From positions 27,791 to 91,790 of the forward strand of contig DAICZP010000113.1 of NCBI GenBank assembly GCA_027311065.1: a DNA stretch of 64,000 nt, read 5' to 3'. Position 1 is the first letter of the stretch. The number at the start of each line of letters is the position of its first letter. Of the stretch, positions 32,995 to 42,259 are shown in pieces. Source of the DNA: Thiomonas sp. GTDB taxonomy: Bacteria > Pseudomonadota > Gammaproteobacteria > Burkholderiales > Burkholderiaceae_C. Under the pieces are notes generated by a model that saw only the letters and a list, made by a program, of their open reading frames with translations, ran no database searches and was not told where the DNA came from. Position numbers and translations under genes: made by a program.

Positions 32995-34104
32995 TCACTG
33001 CGCGACGGCCTGCATGTCATCGGCGATCTTGCGCGCCAGCTGCAAGCGTTCAGTCCCTCGTTCCAGACCCTCGATCCAGCGTCGAGGAATTGCCTGCAGG
33101 CCTCCGATGGCGCCGCACAGTGCACCAGTCAATATTGCGCGCGCCTGGTTCTGGCCGCCGCCGTTGACCGCCGTGAGCACGGCAGTCTCGAAATCGCTGC
33201 CGAACCGCGCGGCCAGGTAATAGGCAGCAGGAAACTGGTGGTAAACCGCGCACGGCAAGCCGTAGAGAAGGCAGATTTTCCACGCCGGCTCGAACTGCAG
33301 GTCGGGGTCGCGCGCGGCGCGTGCGATGTTGGAGGGCATGAGCAGCGCATCCGGGGAGGCGAACTGACCGGCGTCGCGACGTGGCTTTTCCGAATCAGCC
33401 GTCACGGCCGACTCCGATGCGGTGGTGACTGTATGAAACGGCAACTGTCCTTCGCGGACGAGTGCCATGAGTTTGCCCGACACTGCTTCGTCCAGCGCAT
33501 GGCCCTGCACCAGAAGGCCCAGCACGCTGGCGTAGGCCACGGTCATGGCCATGACCGTGGGATCAATCTGTGTCAGTGCGGTGTTCGCGCAGACATCGCG
33601 CGCCAGCTTCCCGGGTTGCAGCGCGTTGCGTACGGCGATGGCGAGCACGCGCTCTGCCGCTTCCGTGTTGTCGGCGTAACCACCGCTTTCACCCCATGGC
33701 CGCCCTTGCACGACGCGCGCACGCCAGGATTCGCGCATGGACTGGCTGGTGTAGCCACCCGGCCCGCTGAGTGGCGTACCGTCGATCAGCGGAAAGAATT
33801 CGTCGTCGATTCGCTGGCAGAAATCCGCCTCGTCGTAGGCGCCACGCCCGGCGAGGCTTCGCAGCGTGAGTTCCAGCAGCCATCCAGCTTGCGACGACTG
33901 ACCCGCGCGCAGGCCGGCGTGGTAGCGGCCGGGGCGCGGCTCGGTGTAGTCCGAAATCCAGGGACCATAGTCACGGCGCAGTGCATCGAGGTCGTAGTAC
34001 CAGTGCGGGCCGAGCCCCAGTGCATCCCCGACAAATGCCCCCATGAGTGCGCCGGCGACGCGCTCGCCGAGGGGAATGGAAGTGGGTTGCGGGGTGGTTG
34101 TCAT
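32995..34104 (-). CDS. ADP-ribosylglycohydrolase family protein
   Basis: ERVAGALMGAFVGDALGLGPHWYYD...GGYADNTEAAERVLAIA...AVLTAVNGGGQNQARAILTGALCGAIGGLQAIP. Confidence 0.88.
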   Translation of the reverse strand: MTTTPQPTSIPLGERVAGALMGAFVGDALGLGPHWYYDLDALRRDYGPWISDYTEPRPGRYHAGLRAGQSSQAGWLLELTLRSLAGRGAYDEADFCQRIDDEFFPLIDGTPLSGPGGYTSQSMRESWRARVVQGRPWGESGGYADNTEAAERVLAIAVRNALQPGKLARDVCANTALTQIDPTVMAMTVAYASVLGLLVQGHALDEAVSGKLMALVREGQLPFHTVTTASESAVTADSEKPRRDAGQFASPDALLMPSNIARAARDPDLQFEPAWKICLLYGLPCAVYHQFPAAYYLAARFGSDFETAVLTAVNGGGQNQARAILTGALCGAIGGLQAIPRRWIEGLERGTERLQLARKIADDMQAVAQ

Positions 34105-34268
34105 GTGTGGGTTCCATCTGGTTGTGAAGCTCTGCAGCAAATCGGCTCGACGCCTAGACTATCCGTGTTTGCGGAACATCTGGCAAGGTATGAACGAGAT
34201 TTTCCGTACGTGGTGCCGCGCGAATCCTGGCACTGTTCATGCAATGTGACTCAACAAGGAATTATCGA

Positions 34269-36358: not shown

Positions 36359-36919
36359 TCATGGCCGGGGAGCACTGCCATGCATGTCCATGCCACCCAT
36401 GTTCATTCCATGCATGTTCATGCCGTTCGCGGCGCTGGCGCCCGAGGCATCGGCGGGACGCACCTCGAATTCGACGCGAAGCGAGGCGCCGCCAGAAAAC
36501 TCCAGGTTGACGGGAACTCGTTGACCGGGGTGGATGTCCTGCTTCGGTTGCATCAGCATGATGTGATAGTCACCCGGCCGAAACTCCACCACAGCGTGCG
36601 GGGGGATCGTCACCTTGTGGACTGCGAGCATTTCCATGGTGCCGCCTTTGCGTACGCTGCGGTGGAGCATGACGTCGCCATACGCGGGGCTGCGGGCGCC
36701 GACGAGGTCGATGGGACGCGTGGAGTGATTCTCGAGCGTCATGTAGCCGCCAGCGGGAAGTCCCGCGGGGAGCCAGCGAATCCAGGCGGAGCGCACCTCG
36801 ATCGCCGCGGGTTTGGCCGCGAACGCGCAAACGCCGAGGCCGAGCCCGAGTGTCACCAAGGCACCGATGGCGGCGCGGCGAGCGCCGCGGGAATGTTTGG
36901 GTTGCAGGGTTGTGTGCAT
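36359..36919 (-). CDS. Periplasmic copper chaperone PCu(A)C family protein with Met/His-rich tail
   Basis: GGYMTLENHSTRPIDLVGARSPAYGDVMLHRSVRKGGTMEMLAVHKVTIPPHAVVEFRPGDYHIMLM; tail NGMNMHGMNMGGMDMHGS. Confidence 0.9.
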   Translation of the reverse strand: MHTTLQPKHSRGARRAAIGALVTLGLGLGVCAFAAKPAAIEVRSAWIRWLPAGLPAGGYMTLENHSTRPIDLVGARSPAYGDVMLHRSVRKGGTMEMLAVHKVTIPPHAVVEFRPGDYHIMLMQPKQDIHPGQRVPVNLEFSGGASLRVEFEVRPADASGASAANGMNMHGMNMGGMDMHGSAPRP

Positions 36920-37045
36920 GATGCGGGGTCTCCAATCAGGGTGCCGGGCGTCAGTGCGTCGGCGGAGCAGGCTGGCTTGGCTCAGGGTCAAGCCACGCAG
37001 AGTTTCGAAGGATGGCATGCGATGACTCCGCGATTGGGTTTGATG

Positions 37046-38251
37046 TTAATCGTGCGCTTGCGGCGCGTGGCAACGCGCCGCGGCGATGCTGCCGACATGG
37101 GTAGCAACCAGCAAGGTGGAAATTCCAGTAAAAATTGTCACCACGCCGTCGAAGTCCTCGATATGAACAAGGTCAAAGCCCAGCAACACCAGTCCGGCAC
37201 ATCCCATTTTGATGGCGCCTTGCAGGGCGCTGGCCGCGCCACGGGCATGCGAGCAAGCATGTGCCATGCCGAGCGCCAGAGCCAGGGGTGCTGCAATCCC
37301 GCACAGCGTGCCCAGGGCCATCGCGAACACAGCCATGGCCTGAAGATTCCGGCCAATACCCAGGGCCCATGCAAGCATGCACAGCGTCGCAAATGACGCG
37401 ACGCACGCAGCGTAGACCGATTCGGATGCCCAATGCAGCGGCAGGCGCATCGCCAGCGCCGATCCGAGGAGGATGGCGCTGGCGTACAGCAGGTAGAACA
37501 GAGCATTCTCGATGGGTGTGAACCCGAGCGCATGAAACGCATAGGGCAACATTGCATAAAGTCCCAGGCTGAAGCTCATGATCAGCGCCGAGCCGATGCC
37601 ATGGCGCATGAAGGTCGGGTTGCACAGAAGGCTGATATAGGTCGCACGCGCAGCGCTGGTCGCCGTGGGCGTGCTCCTCGCTGCAGGTGGGTGTGTCTCG
37701 CGCAGCACGCGCTTCAGGACGACGAGATGGAGGGCGGTCGCGGCCGCCAGGGTGAAGAAGCACGCACGCCAGCCCCAGCGCTGCTGGATGGCGGCGCCGA
37801 AAACGGGCGCCAGCGCCGGCGAGAGCTGGCTGGCCATTGTGAACCATGCGAATGCGCTGCGTAGCGACGAGGCACGCTCGAAGACGTCGCTGACGATCGC
37901 GCGCGCCACCACGGCGCAGGCGGCGGTGCCGCAGGCCGTGCACACGCGACCGACATAAAGCATGGTCACACCGGTGCTGACCGCCGACACTGACAGACCC
38001 ACGATGGCGATGGCAAGCCCAAGCAGCACCGCGGGGCGGCGGCCATGTCGGTCGCTGTAGCTGCCATAGAACGGCTGTGCCAGACCCAGGGCTACCAGAT
38101 ACGTCGCGACGAGGGTTTTGGTGGCCGCTTGCGTGGTGTGCAGCGCCGCCGTGATCGCGGGCAGCGACGGATTGAAGAAGTCCACCGCCATCAAACCCAT
38201 GGCGAGCACGGCGCAAGCGGTGACGAGTGCGTGGCGCTGGTCTGGTTGCAT
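37046..38251 (-). CDS. MFS transporter, Bcr/CflA drug/peptide efflux subfamily
   Basis: AVDFFNPSLPAITAALHTTQAATKTLVATYLVALGLAQPFYGSYSDRHGRRPAVLLGLAIAIVGLSVSA. Confidence 0.88.
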   Translation of the reverse strand: MQPDQRHALVTACAVLAMGLMAVDFFNPSLPAITAALHTTQAATKTLVATYLVALGLAQPFYGSYSDRHGRRPAVLLGLAIAIVGLSVSAVSTGVTMLYVGRVCTACGTAACAVVARAIVSDVFERASSLRSAFAWFTMASQLSPALAPVFGAAIQQRWGWRACFFTLAAATALHLVVLKRVLRETHPPAARSTPTATSAARATYISLLCNPTFMRHGIGSALIMSFSLGLYAMLPYAFHALGFTPIENALFYLLYASAILLGSALAMRLPLHWASESVYAACVASFATLCMLAWALGIGRNLQAMAVFAMALGTLCGIAAPLALALGMAHACSHARGAASALQGAIKMGCAGLVLLGFDLVHIEDFDGVVTIFTGISTLLVATHVGSIAAARCHAPQAHD

Positions 38252-38275
38252 GGATCCGATGCTGCCGATGCGCGC

Positions 38276-38899
38276 TCAGCCGGCGCTGCGGATGACCATG
38301 CCGCGATTGGCGAAAAAGCGCTTGAATTGGGCGCATGGCATGTAGACATCGGCCTGGGTTCCCGTAATTCCCGAGGGGTTGTGGAACCAGATTCCGTGCG
38401 TATCGCGTCCGTGAAGCAGGACGAGATGACCGCCCTGATGGACGTTTGGTCGCGAGGGGTAGCGGATCTCGGGGCTGACCGAGGCCATGGCCATCGACCC
38501 CGGGCCGATGCCATTGATCAGTTCCGACACGTCGTTGCGAGGGTAGATGCGCACGACCAACCCGAAGGCTTCGAGGAGCCAGTGCGCAAACCGGCTGTAG
38601 TACAAGCCTCCGACCGATCCGTCCGCAGCGACGACGTAGGCGTGATGATGCATGGCTTGATCGAGGAGCTGGCTGGCATTCGGAACATGGTGCTGCCAAT
38701 AACCGAGCATCGAACGCAGGCAGGCGAGACCGCACAGCCTCCGCGCCCAGAATCGGTAGCGCTGGGGATCATCGAAGCCGGACGTGCGCCAGGTCTGGTC
38801 CAGGCAGGGATCCTCCCGGTGCTCGACGATGCGGTGCACGAATCGCGGATCGGCCCATTGCGAGAAATACGGTACGGCAGGGTGGCGAAACACTGGCAT
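38276..38899 (-). CDS. C39-like (papain-fold) peptidase family protein
   Basis: RLCGLACLRSMLGYW (candidate catalytic Cys), GGHLVLLHGRDTHGIWFHNPSG (candidate His and Asn). Confidence 0.65.
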   Translation of the reverse strand: MPVFRHPAVPYFSQWADPRFVHRIVEHREDPCLDQTWRTSGFDDPQRYRFWARRLCGLACLRSMLGYWQHHVPNASQLLDQAMHHHAYVVAADGSVGGLYYSRFAHWLLEAFGLVVRIYPRNDVSELINGIGPGSMAMASVSPEIRYPSRPNVHQGGHLVLLHGRDTHGIWFHNPSGITGTQADVYMPCAQFKRFFANRGMVIRSAG

Positions 38900-38929
38900 G
38901 GCGGGTGGCGGGCCTGCGGGATCCCGGCG

Positions 38930-39913
38930 TCAGGGGCGGTAGCGCTGGCAGGCACCGATGGACGCGACGATGCGCGCGATCAATTCTTCATAGTCCCAGC
39001 CGTGCGGCGCTGCCATGGTGGCGAGGTTGCCTTGGCGCGACAGACCGGGAAGGGTGTTGACTTCGAGAAACCACGGCGTGCCCTCGCGGTCGACCATGAA
39101 GTCGAAGCGGGCGTAGCCGTGGCAACCAAGTGCCGTGAACATGTTCTGCGCATCCCGGCACACGGCGGCGGCGGTGGCGTCGGGCAATGCGGCGGGGCAT
39201 TCGTAGCGCCGCGCCGCGGGCGCGTGTTTGGTGTCGTAGTCATAGAACGGCGCGTCGTGATGAATCGCCAGTGGCGGCAGCACGGTGAGCTCCTCGCCGA
39301 TCTCGAACACCGCGACCGTGACGTCGATCCCCTCGATGCAGGCGCAGGCCAGCAATGGTGCCTCCTCCAATGCTGCCGCACGCAGGCATTCGCCAAGCGC
39401 CATGGGGGAATCAACGACGCAAGCACCCAGACTTCCGCCACCCGAGGCGGGCTTGAGGAAAACGCGGCCATTGAACACGCCGAACAGCGCACGCGCGGAC
39501 TTGTCACTTGCGTTGCGGCGGTCGCACGACATCCAGCGGGGTACATTCAGCCCGGCGTTTTCAGCGATGCGATTGCACAGTGGTTTGTGCATGGCGATTG
39601 CGCTGGCAGCCACGCCGGAGCCGTTGTAGGGGACTCCGGCGAGCTCGAGCGCGCCTTGCAGTTTGCCGTCCTCGCCCCACCAGCCATGAATGGCGAGGAA
39701 GGCGAAGTCGCAGGTCCGCAGCTCGGCATGGTCGAGGTCGTTGAGATCACGCACGCTGCAGCGCATGCCGAGGTGTGCCAATGCGGAAATTGCATCCTCG
39801 GCACTGCGCAAGGAGCCAGCGCGTTCGGGGCCCGAACCACCGGTGATCAACAGCACACTGGGGTCATGGTGGAGAAGATGCTGCCGCTTTGGGCGGGATT
39901 GGACCAGATTCAT
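38930..39913 (-). CDS. D-alanine-D-alanine ligase-like ATP-grasp enzyme
   Basis: LAIHGWWGEDGKLQGALELAGVPYNGSGVAASAIAMHK, VFLKPASGGGSLG, ARFDFMVDREGTPWFLEVNTLPGLS. Confidence 0.88.
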   Translation of the reverse strand: MNLVQSRPKRQHLLHHDPSVLLITGGSGPERAGSLRSAEDAISALAHLGMRCSVRDLNDLDHAELRTCDFAFLAIHGWWGEDGKLQGALELAGVPYNGSGVAASAIAMHKPLCNRIAENAGLNVPRWMSCDRRNASDKSARALFGVFNGRVFLKPASGGGSLGACVVDSPMALGECLRAAALEEAPLLACACIEGIDVTVAVFEIGEELTVLPPLAIHHDAPFYDYDTKHAPAARRYECPAALPDATAAAVCRDAQNMFTALGCHGYARFDFMVDREGTPWFLEVNTLPGLSRQGNLATMAAPHGWDYEELIARIVASIGACQRYRP

Positions 39914-40773
39914 GGGTGTCTTTTCCGGGTTGTGCGCATGCGAGGAATGTCCTGTCGAGGTTGACGCAGTGCAAAAGCGCGCCACCAAGCATGGGCATGG
40001 CGGCACGCGCGATATCGCGAAAACCGGGGGAGTCGCGGCTGGCGAAGAGCAGCGGGGGGCTCGCCCGGGAGGCGTGATTCGCGCCTATTTGCCCTTGGTC
40101 AATGGCCTGACGCAAATCCCCAGCCACGAGCGAGCCGGGGTCGATGACGGAAACCGCGGGGCCGAGCAGTTCGCCCAGGCGCTGGCGCAGGAACGCGAAA
40201 TGGGTGCAACCGATGATCACGGCATCACGTCGCCGCGCGTCCAGGCGCGCGAGGTCGACCGCAAGGAGCGTGCGGGTGTCGGGATGCATGCCGAGGCCCT
40301 GCTCGATGCGTGTCACCAGCTGCGGGCATGCGATGGTCGCCACGCGTGCGGCGGGTCGCAAACCCCGGATCTGCTGTTCGTAGGCGCGAGTACGGACGGT
40401 CGCTTCAGTGGCGAGAATGCCAATGTCCTGCAGATTGGGTTGCCGCGCGGCGAATCGCGCGCCGGCTTGCAGCACGTCGAACACCGGGACGTCGATCAGG
40501 TGCCTCAGCGTCGGGCCGTGCACGGCGCAAACGGTGTTGCATGCCACGACCAGCGCCTTCACGTTCTGGGTGCGCATGAAGCACGCAATGCGCGCCGTGC
40601 GTGCCTGAATCAGCGCGGGAGGCTTGTTGCCATACGGCGCATGTGCGAGGTCGGCGAAATAGATGAAGCGCTCGTGCGGGAGCAGACGCAGCAGACTGCG
40701 CAAGGTGGACAGACCGCCCACGCCCGAATCGATGACGCCGATCGGTTGCATGTTCAACGCTGTGTCGCCAGGG
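39864..40773 (-). CDS. murI: Glutamate racemase / Asp-Glu racemase family (start approximate)
   Basis: IGVIDSGVGGLSTLRSL, VVACNTVCAVHGP and VIIGCTHFAFLRQRL with both catalytic Cys; overlaps the ATP-grasp gene by about 50 nt. Confidence 0.9.
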
Positions 40774-41026
40774 ATGACACACATTCCCGAATTCCTCGTG
40801 TGGGTTCGCCCGGGGCAACTGCCTCGTCCGCAGACTGGCAGCCGCCGCTGATGAACCTTGATTGAATTGGGAAATGCTAGAGCCCGTGGGCACGCGCGAA
40901 ACCACGACACGCAAAAAGCAAGTAGCGTGCAGCTTTGGCGGCTTTAAACCGAGAAAACAATTAAAAAATATTTATTAAACAAAATAAAAATGACAATCCG
41001 GGGTCATACCATAAGGCCCGACATGG

Positions 41027-42259
41027 TTACTGGCCAGACCGGAACGACGATGGAAGCCGGTTCTCCTTGGCAGCGTCAGCCCGCGCCACCGCTCTCAGCA
41101 CGAGCAGCAGCACCGTGCCGACCACCATCACGCACGCCGCGAAGTCCAGCCCGGCCGCGTAGCTGCCTGAGCGCGCGGCCAGACGCGCCGTCACCAGAGG
41201 GCCGAGAATTTGCGCGGCGCCGTATGAAACTGTCATGCGCCCCATCATCCTGGCGGGGCGGGTCGGATAAAAGCGGCCCGCCATGGTCAGAACCAGACTG
41301 ACCATGCCGATGAATGTACCTCCGAACAGCAGCGCTCCCAGCAGCGCCGCCGGCAGGCCGCCGACGGTGACAGGCAACACGATGCCGACGATCTGAAGCA
41401 GCGCAGCCACGATCAATGCGTTGAGGTCGCCGATGCGGCGCGCGATCAGGTCCCAGTTGACGCAGGCCGGAGCAGCGCCCAGTCCGATTGCCAGAAATAC
41501 GAGGTTGCCATGACCCTTGAGTCCGGGGAGGTGGTTGACGATGGCGACGATGAACGTGGCGCTGACGACGTAGCCAATGCCAGCGCAAAAGTAGGCTGCC
41601 ATGAAAATATTGAGGAAGGTGCGGCTCGGCGGACGATCCTCCAGGCGCTGCCCGCTACGGGTCAGCCCGGATGTGTCCGGCGACGGCAGCCAGCCCAGTG
41701 CCGGCAGCAGGAGCACTGCGCCGATGGTCGTGAATGCGAACCACTGCCGCGCCCAGTCCAGTGCCGGGCTGAACAGCATCACGGCGGCAGCGCACCCTGC
41801 AATGCCAAGGCCGAGGCCAGCGAAGTGGATGCCAAGCTCGCTGCGGAAATGATGTCGCATCAACCAATGCAGAATCAAGCCTGTGCCCAGAAGCAGGCCG
41901 GCGGCGCTGCTCAGCCCTGCCAGGTAGCGCGATAGCCCCCACACCACCAGATTGGTGCTCAGGCCCATGGCGGCGGTACTCAGCACAGCAAGCACCATGC
42001 CCAGGCGGTAGAGGCGATCCTTCAGCACCATGTCGCTGATGGTCGACGCCACCAAGGCGCCACTCAGGTAGCCGGCGTAGTTGATCGATGCCAGCCAGCC
42101 AGCCTCGCGCAGGCCCAAGCCTGCTTGCTGCTGCATCAGCGGCAGCAGCGGGGTATAGGCAAAGCGGGCGACGCCCAGGGACAAAAGCAAACTGCAGATG
42201 CCAGCAAACAGAACCTTGCGGCGCTGGACGCGATCATGCGCGTCAGGAACGTGAGACAT
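41027..42259 (-). CDS. YbfB/YjiJ-family MFS transporter
   Basis: LSLGVARFAYTPLLPLMQQQAGLGLREAGWLASINYAGYLSGAL. Confidence 0.88.
   Translation of the reverse strand: MSHVPDAHDRVQRRKVLFAGICSLLLSLGVARFAYTPLLPLMQQQAGLGLREAGWLASINYAGYLSGALVASTISDMVLKDRLYRLGMVLAVLSTAAMGLSTNLVVWGLSRYLAGLSSAAGLLLGTGLILHWLMRHHFRSELGIHFAGLGLGIAGCAAAVMLFSPALDWARQWFAFTTIGAVLLLPALGWLPSPDTSGLTRSGQRLEDRPPSRTFLNIFMAAYFCAGIGYVVSATFIVAIVNHLPGLKGHGNLVFLAIGLGAAPACVNWDLIARRIGDLNALIVAALLQIVGIVLPVTVGGLPAALLGALLFGGTFIGMVSLVLTMAGRFYPTRPARMMGRMTVSYGAAQILGPLVTARLAARSGSYAAGLDFAACVMVVGTVLLLVLRAVARADAAKENRLPSSFRSGQ

Follow-up and report, generated by a model that had tools for sequence, protein, structure and literature searches.

A four-gene unit of Thiomonas sp. 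with a divergent Ddl-type ligase and a C39-like cysteine enzyme: an accessory operon and candidate D-dipeptide module

What could be the function of an operon that combines a racemase, a Ddl-type ATP-grasp ligase, a papain-type cysteine enzyme, and a transporter? Such an array of four minus-strand genes, termed here RAC, LIG, C39-like, and MFS (major facilitator superfamily), is found at 37046-40784 of the window, by which we mean the whole analysed stretch of 64,000 nucleotides from a Thiomonas sp. (contig DAICZP010000113.1, positions 27,791 to 91,790). The initial annotation had suggested that the unit makes and exports a small D-amino-acid peptide, with a peptidoglycan-recycling or housekeeping unit as the alternative. 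The unit is accessory and does not belong to the housekeeping genes. On balance, we favour the reading that it is a D-dipeptide module, for which RAC would provide a D-amino acid and LIG a dipeptide other than D-Ala-D-Ala, while the C39-like enzyme would act on D-dipeptides and MFS would be responsible for export. The substrates, the product, the C39 reaction, and the export are what we infer from the sequences and their gene contexts.

The array exceeds a chance arrangement because two further genomes contain the four genes in the same order (about 40-58% identity; in one of them the racemase is truncated by the contig end). LIG and the C39-like gene are both present in the same three of 28 genomes of the genus and absent from the other 25. 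Seven relatives within the genus were checked for copy numbers: the two with the unit encode two Ddl and two MurI proteins, the five without it one of each. In the Thiomonas genome itself, the second full Ddl-family gene adjoins ftsQ, ftsA, and ftsZ in the dcw cluster (contig C122) and a separate murI is located on another contig (C65), so that both second copies asked for in the initial annotation were found. The trees it had proposed group neither LIG nor RAC with a housekeeping copy, and its proposal withstood this comparison. The unit ligases form a clade of their own (support 100/100), which falls outside the housekeeping DdlB clade and is joined to ligases of Streptomyces and Nonomuraea plasmids (95/94), and the unit racemases are split from the housekeeping MurI clade of the genus (99/98). 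A recycling or housekeeping unit with standard Ddl and MurI enzymes is therefore very improbable, and this alternative was rejected given the second ddl and murI and the separate clades. It could draw on the score of RAC above the glutamate racemase cut-off of TIGR00067 and on a Mesorhizobium C39 gene adjoining dipeptide-uptake and dipeptidase genes, but the sporadic presence among the congeners and the altered pocket of LIG also speak against it.

LIG belongs to the Ddl-type ATP-grasp family, matching PF07478 with 126.5 bits and also PF01820. In the numbering of E. coli DdlB, it retains E15, H63, K97, K144, K215, R255, D257, E270, and N272, and the family assignment is based on the two matches together with K144, K215, R255, D257, E270, and N272. 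The Ddl motifs described in the initial annotation are thus present and the catalytic residues kept. Glu15 and Arg255 of DdlB touch the ligand (PMC5717164). However, only E15 remains of the D-Ala-pocket set E15/S150/Y216/S281, and the other three of the four residues of a D-Ala-D-Ala ligase pocket are changed (S150G, Y216H, and S281G). Depsipeptide activity has been reported for Ddl changes at Tyr216 and Ser150 (PMC7691350). Given the intact catalytic residues and the altered pocket, we infer that LIG would be active yet form a product other than D-Ala-D-Ala. The actinobacterial relatives of LIG have G150 and G281 and either R or N at position 216; S150, Y216, and S281 are canonical in the housekeeping Ddl proteins and in the rhizobial DdlA-type partners of C39. 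The window-type ligases and four of the six actinobacterial ones end with a C-terminal YRP, and LPGLSxxGNLAxMA is common to all window-type and actinobacterial ligases compared, both of which may be taken as further signs of common descent. The Streptomyces and Nonomuraea plasmid ligases grouping with LIG also adjoin C39 genes of the same family.

The C39-like protein matches PF13529 with 30.3 bits (cut-off 24). The Cys/His/Asn triad predicted in the initial annotation corresponds to Cys56, His158, and Asn174, which are invariant across 16 family members together with Gln14, the probable oxyanion residue, and the family match combined with these residues assigns the protein to PF13529. There is no obvious secretion signal and the enzyme is apparently cytosolic. 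A profile search of the PDB with the protein gave no match. Relatives are encoded in Paraburkholderia and on plasmids of Streptomyces, Nonomuraea, Rhodococcus, Agrobacterium, Rhizobium, Sinorhizobium, Phyllobacterium, and Mesorhizobium. A phage origin was considered and rejected, because the family has no member among 50,697 phage records and only one IMG/VR contig bears a lone rhizobial-type C39.

RAC matches PF01177 and reaches 184.3 bits with TIGR00067 (cut-off 146.65). Both catalytic cysteine motifs, ACNT and GCTH, are kept as had been noted before, and in the alignment with the Streptococcus pyogenes MurI the DSGVGG and APYG motifs and the Glu following CPxLVxxI are kept as well. By its two catalytic cysteines and its TIGR00067 score RAC is assigned to the MurI-type glutamate racemases and would probably supply D-Glu.

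The pairing of ligase and C39 is conserved far beyond close relatives, and racemase, ligase, and C39 are found together in actinobacteria; the neighbourhood conservation expected in the initial annotation therefore holds for this core, but among the neighbourhoods compared the full arrangement of four genes, MurI and MFS included, was restricted to the genus of the window. On plasmids, 54 records contain the C39 family, and in 32 of them a Ddl-family gene lies no more than 2 kb away; these are not 32 separate cases, since nearly duplicate records are numerous for Agrobacterium and also occur for Streptomyces. Among 399 evenly sampled Pseudomonadota genomes, ten carry the C39 family, and eight of these ten have an adjacent Ddl-family gene (several of the eight are close kin), compared with a chance expectation of about 0.2-0.3% per gene. 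Two ligase types pair with C39, a divergent DdlB-like type in the window genus and in actinobacteria, and DdlA in rhizobia. The racemase slot is also filled differently. It is occupied by MurI in the window genus, by a pyridoxal phosphate (PLP) enzyme of fold-type II annotated as threonine/serine dehydratase in Streptomyces, Nonomuraea, and Rhodococcus, and by a DapF-family epimerase in S. mirabilis (TIGR00652, 171.8 bits versus a cut-off of 114.65). It is conceivable, though we hold this broader proposal only tentatively, that Actinomycetota and Pseudomonadota share a widespread, as yet undescribed D-dipeptide system, encoded on plasmids as well as on chromosomes, in which C39 and a Ddl-type ligase are combined with an interchangeable racemase (MurI, PLP, or DapF) and the non-standard D-dipeptides made would be exported or used at cell-wall termini.

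D-amino-acid peptides are the theme common to the C39 neighbourhoods. Three of the C39 genes concerned are ligase-free. In a Paraburkholderia-like genome C39 follows a gene for a DAO-family oxidase, in one gammaproteobacterium it directly follows PBP2 (mrdA) and RodA (mrdB; L099:3108-6986), and on a Mesorhizobium terrae plasmid the genes preceding it encode an ABC transporter for oligopeptides/dipeptides and a membrane dipeptidase (L102:887-4606), a context that suggests a role in dipeptide breakdown. MurF and MurC-like paralogues adjoin the core on actinobacterial plasmids, a gene for an M55 D-aminopeptidase (DppA) in Nonomuraea, and one for an M15 protein (D-Ala-D-Ala dipeptidase/VanX family) in Rhodococcus.

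Several minor features of these loci were also recorded. HipA-family genes adjoin ligase-free C39 genes in Paraburkholderia and Phyllobacterium (L012:4188-5537, L052:3072-4424, L038:6662-7990), and genes for trans-3-hydroxy-L-proline dehydratase and LhpI reductase are located downstream of the Paraburkholderia domus C39 (L012:8301-10302). A gene for a helix-turn-helix/peptide deformylase fusion is oriented divergently to the Nonomuraea ligase-PLP-C39 operon (L032:6229-7794), at a position taken by MurF on other plasmids. The C39-adjacent ligase is annotated as two separate hypothetical proteins on the Streptomyces plasmids NZ_CP109396.1, NZ_CP108523.1, and NZ_CP108260.1, which suggests decay or a frameshift. 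In one rhizobial-type genome the C39 gene is in two frames (L061:6089-6755), either by a frameshift or by an assembly error, and the downstream ligase is intact.

How might the four proteins act together? RAC would make a D-amino acid, most likely D-Glu, and LIG would couple two D-amino acids to a dipeptide that is not D-Ala-D-Ala. D-dipeptides would be the targets of the C39-like enzyme, for which hydrolysis is more likely than transfer, and the MFS pump would export the product or a derivative. As a class, the proposed D-amino-acid peptide pathway is well supported. The export part is less secure. Remodelling of cell-wall precursors is nearly as good a reading, because MurF, MurC, M15, and M55 genes accompany the actinobacterial core. 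For the window operon export is favoured over cell-wall use because all three copies contain the exporter and none a Mur ligase, while for the actinobacterial relatives the cell-wall reading is stronger.

Spelled out, the latter would be a Van-like remodelling, in which RAC supplies a new D-amino acid (as VanT does D-Ser), LIG forms D-Ala-D-X or D-X-D-Y, the normal D-Ala-D-Ala pool is broken down by C39 as it is by VanX, MurF installs the dipeptide at the stem terminus, and MFS is a drug efflux pump. We regard this as doubtful for the unit. Next to the paralogous mur, M15, and M55 genes on actinobacterial plasmids, the C39 behind PBP2-RodA would fit, and LIG is changed at the two positions (150 and 216) reported to give depsipeptide activity (PMC7691350). 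However, neither the window unit nor its two genus relatives contain a MurF paralogue, glycopeptide resistance would be of little gain to Gram-negative hosts, and the ligase of the rhizobial pairs has a canonical D-Ala-D-Ala pocket. The Van operons themselves (VanT-VanC-VanXY and VanH-VanA-VanX) resemble the unit in placing a Ddl ligase of altered specificity by a supplier of the second substrate and, in the favoured D-dipeptide reading, by a dipeptidase; the MurF and M15 genes of the actinobacterial relatives are a further likeness. In contrast, LIG is a short DdlB-like protein reaching only 90-147 bits with Van-specific models (cut-offs 495-775), and the unit has MurI instead of VanT/VanH, a papain-type C39 instead of VanX/VanXY, and in addition an MFS exporter. 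No VanRS was seen with the unit, and the four genes include no M15, VanT, or VanH gene. Lacking a Van-clade ligase, an M15 VanX/VanXY, and VanT/VanH, the unit is not a Van-type glycopeptide resistance operon.

The additional enzymes could also act as spare targets, an extra Ddl and MurI (elsewhere MurF and MurC) conferring, together with efflux, resistance to a cytoplasmic cell-wall inhibitor such as D-cycloserine or a D-amino-acid antimetabolite. D-cycloserine resistance from mobile ddl genes is known (PMC7691350), and the gene order C39 - DdlA - DMT transporter in R. rhizogenes would suit such a role. However, LIG should not replace Ddl because it has lost the D-Ala-pocket residues, and C39 and the PLP enzymes are not known targets. 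To our knowledge, MurI is not a target of D-cycloserine either. This explanation is thus unlikely. The self-resistance pair of DcsI (Ddl) and DcsJ (membrane protein) likewise joins a second Ddl to a membrane transporter, but the unit differs by its altered LIG pocket, its racemase, and its C39, and contains no cycloserine biosynthetic genes. Bacilysin BacD and its exporter BacE share with the unit the association of an ATP-grasp ligase with an MFS exporter, but LIG is of the Ddl family and only weakly similar to the solved L-amino acid ligase 3vot (E = 0.0006). We know of no counterpart of the racemase and of C39 in ATP-grasp dipeptide antibiotic clusters such as that of bacilysin. MysD of mycosporine biosynthesis is another Ddl homologue acting outside the cell wall; a MysD-type role was set aside because no mysA-C partner genes are present at the unit.

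Several points weigh against the D-dipeptide module. The most serious is that making and hydrolysing one dipeptide within the same operon would be a futile cycle, so that ligase and hydrolase would have to act on different peptides. Since the rhizobial partners keep the canonical S150/Y216/S281, C39 also pairs with unaltered ligases, and ligase-free C39 genes occur in Paraburkholderia, Phyllobacterium, Rhizobium tumorigenes, Mesorhizobium, and a gammaproteobacterium. Instead of racemases, the PLP enzymes may be dehydratases, and the AlphaFold2 model of the C39-like protein (pLDDT 48) is too poor for fold comparison.

The statement of the initial annotation that the combination was not recognised as described agrees with our search of the open-access literature, subscription literature lying outside the search, in which no description of C39 with Ddl and a racemase was found. 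If the proposal is true, the unit would represent a new D-dipeptide pathway, in which the acceptor pocket of the ligase is rebuilt and a family of papain-type enzymes is connected with D-amino-acid dipeptides through its gene contexts. Such a pathway would offer enzymes for unusual D,D-peptides, candidates for new antibiotics or plasmid-borne resistance determinants, and a testable route to changed cell-wall termini outside the known van systems.

The coordinates of the four genes (Table 1) agree with the compact layout described in the initial annotation: the end of RAC (39864) overlaps the ATG of LIG (39913) by about 50 nucleotides, and spacers of 30 and 24 nucleotides separate LIG from C39-like and C39-like from MFS. 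The array was located as annotated, but RAC likely starts not exactly at 40773 but at the ATG at 40784, which is preceded by GAGGA, or at the alternative ATG at 40751.

Table 1. Genes of the unit, in window coordinates.
Gene	Position	Strand	Assignment
RAC	39864..40784	-	MurI/Asp-Glu racemase family; 306 residues from ATG 40784, 295 residues from ATG 40751
LIG	38930..39913	-	Divergent Ddl-type ATP-grasp ligase, 327 residues; PF07478 and PF01820
C39-like	38276..38899	-	Papain-type cysteine peptidase/transferase, 207 residues; PF13529
MFS	37046..38251	-	Bcr/CflA-like transporter, 401 residues; PF07690

MFS occupies the same place in both other copies of the unit (49% identity) and matches PF07690 with 121 bits. 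Its best subfamily is TIGR00710 (Bcr/CflA), as annotated before, but the score of 143.3 bits is under the cut-off of 200.9, and by sequence the protein is assigned to MFS_1 with the Bcr/CflA label being approximate only. Two neighbouring genes, a YbfB-type MFS upstream (41027-42259) and a PCu(A)C gene downstream (36359-37018), were rejected as parts of the operon, having no match beside the two other unit copies. GC content and GC at third codon positions (GC3) of the four genes are in line with those of the window, and this comparison gave no compositional sign of recent acquisition. Further downstream, at 32995-34140, the window encodes an ADP-ribosylglycohydrolase-like protein with weak matches to DraG models. 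C39, MFS, and ADP-ribosylglycohydrolase genes are also found together on a Streptomyces plasmid (L037), which is perhaps a coincidence.
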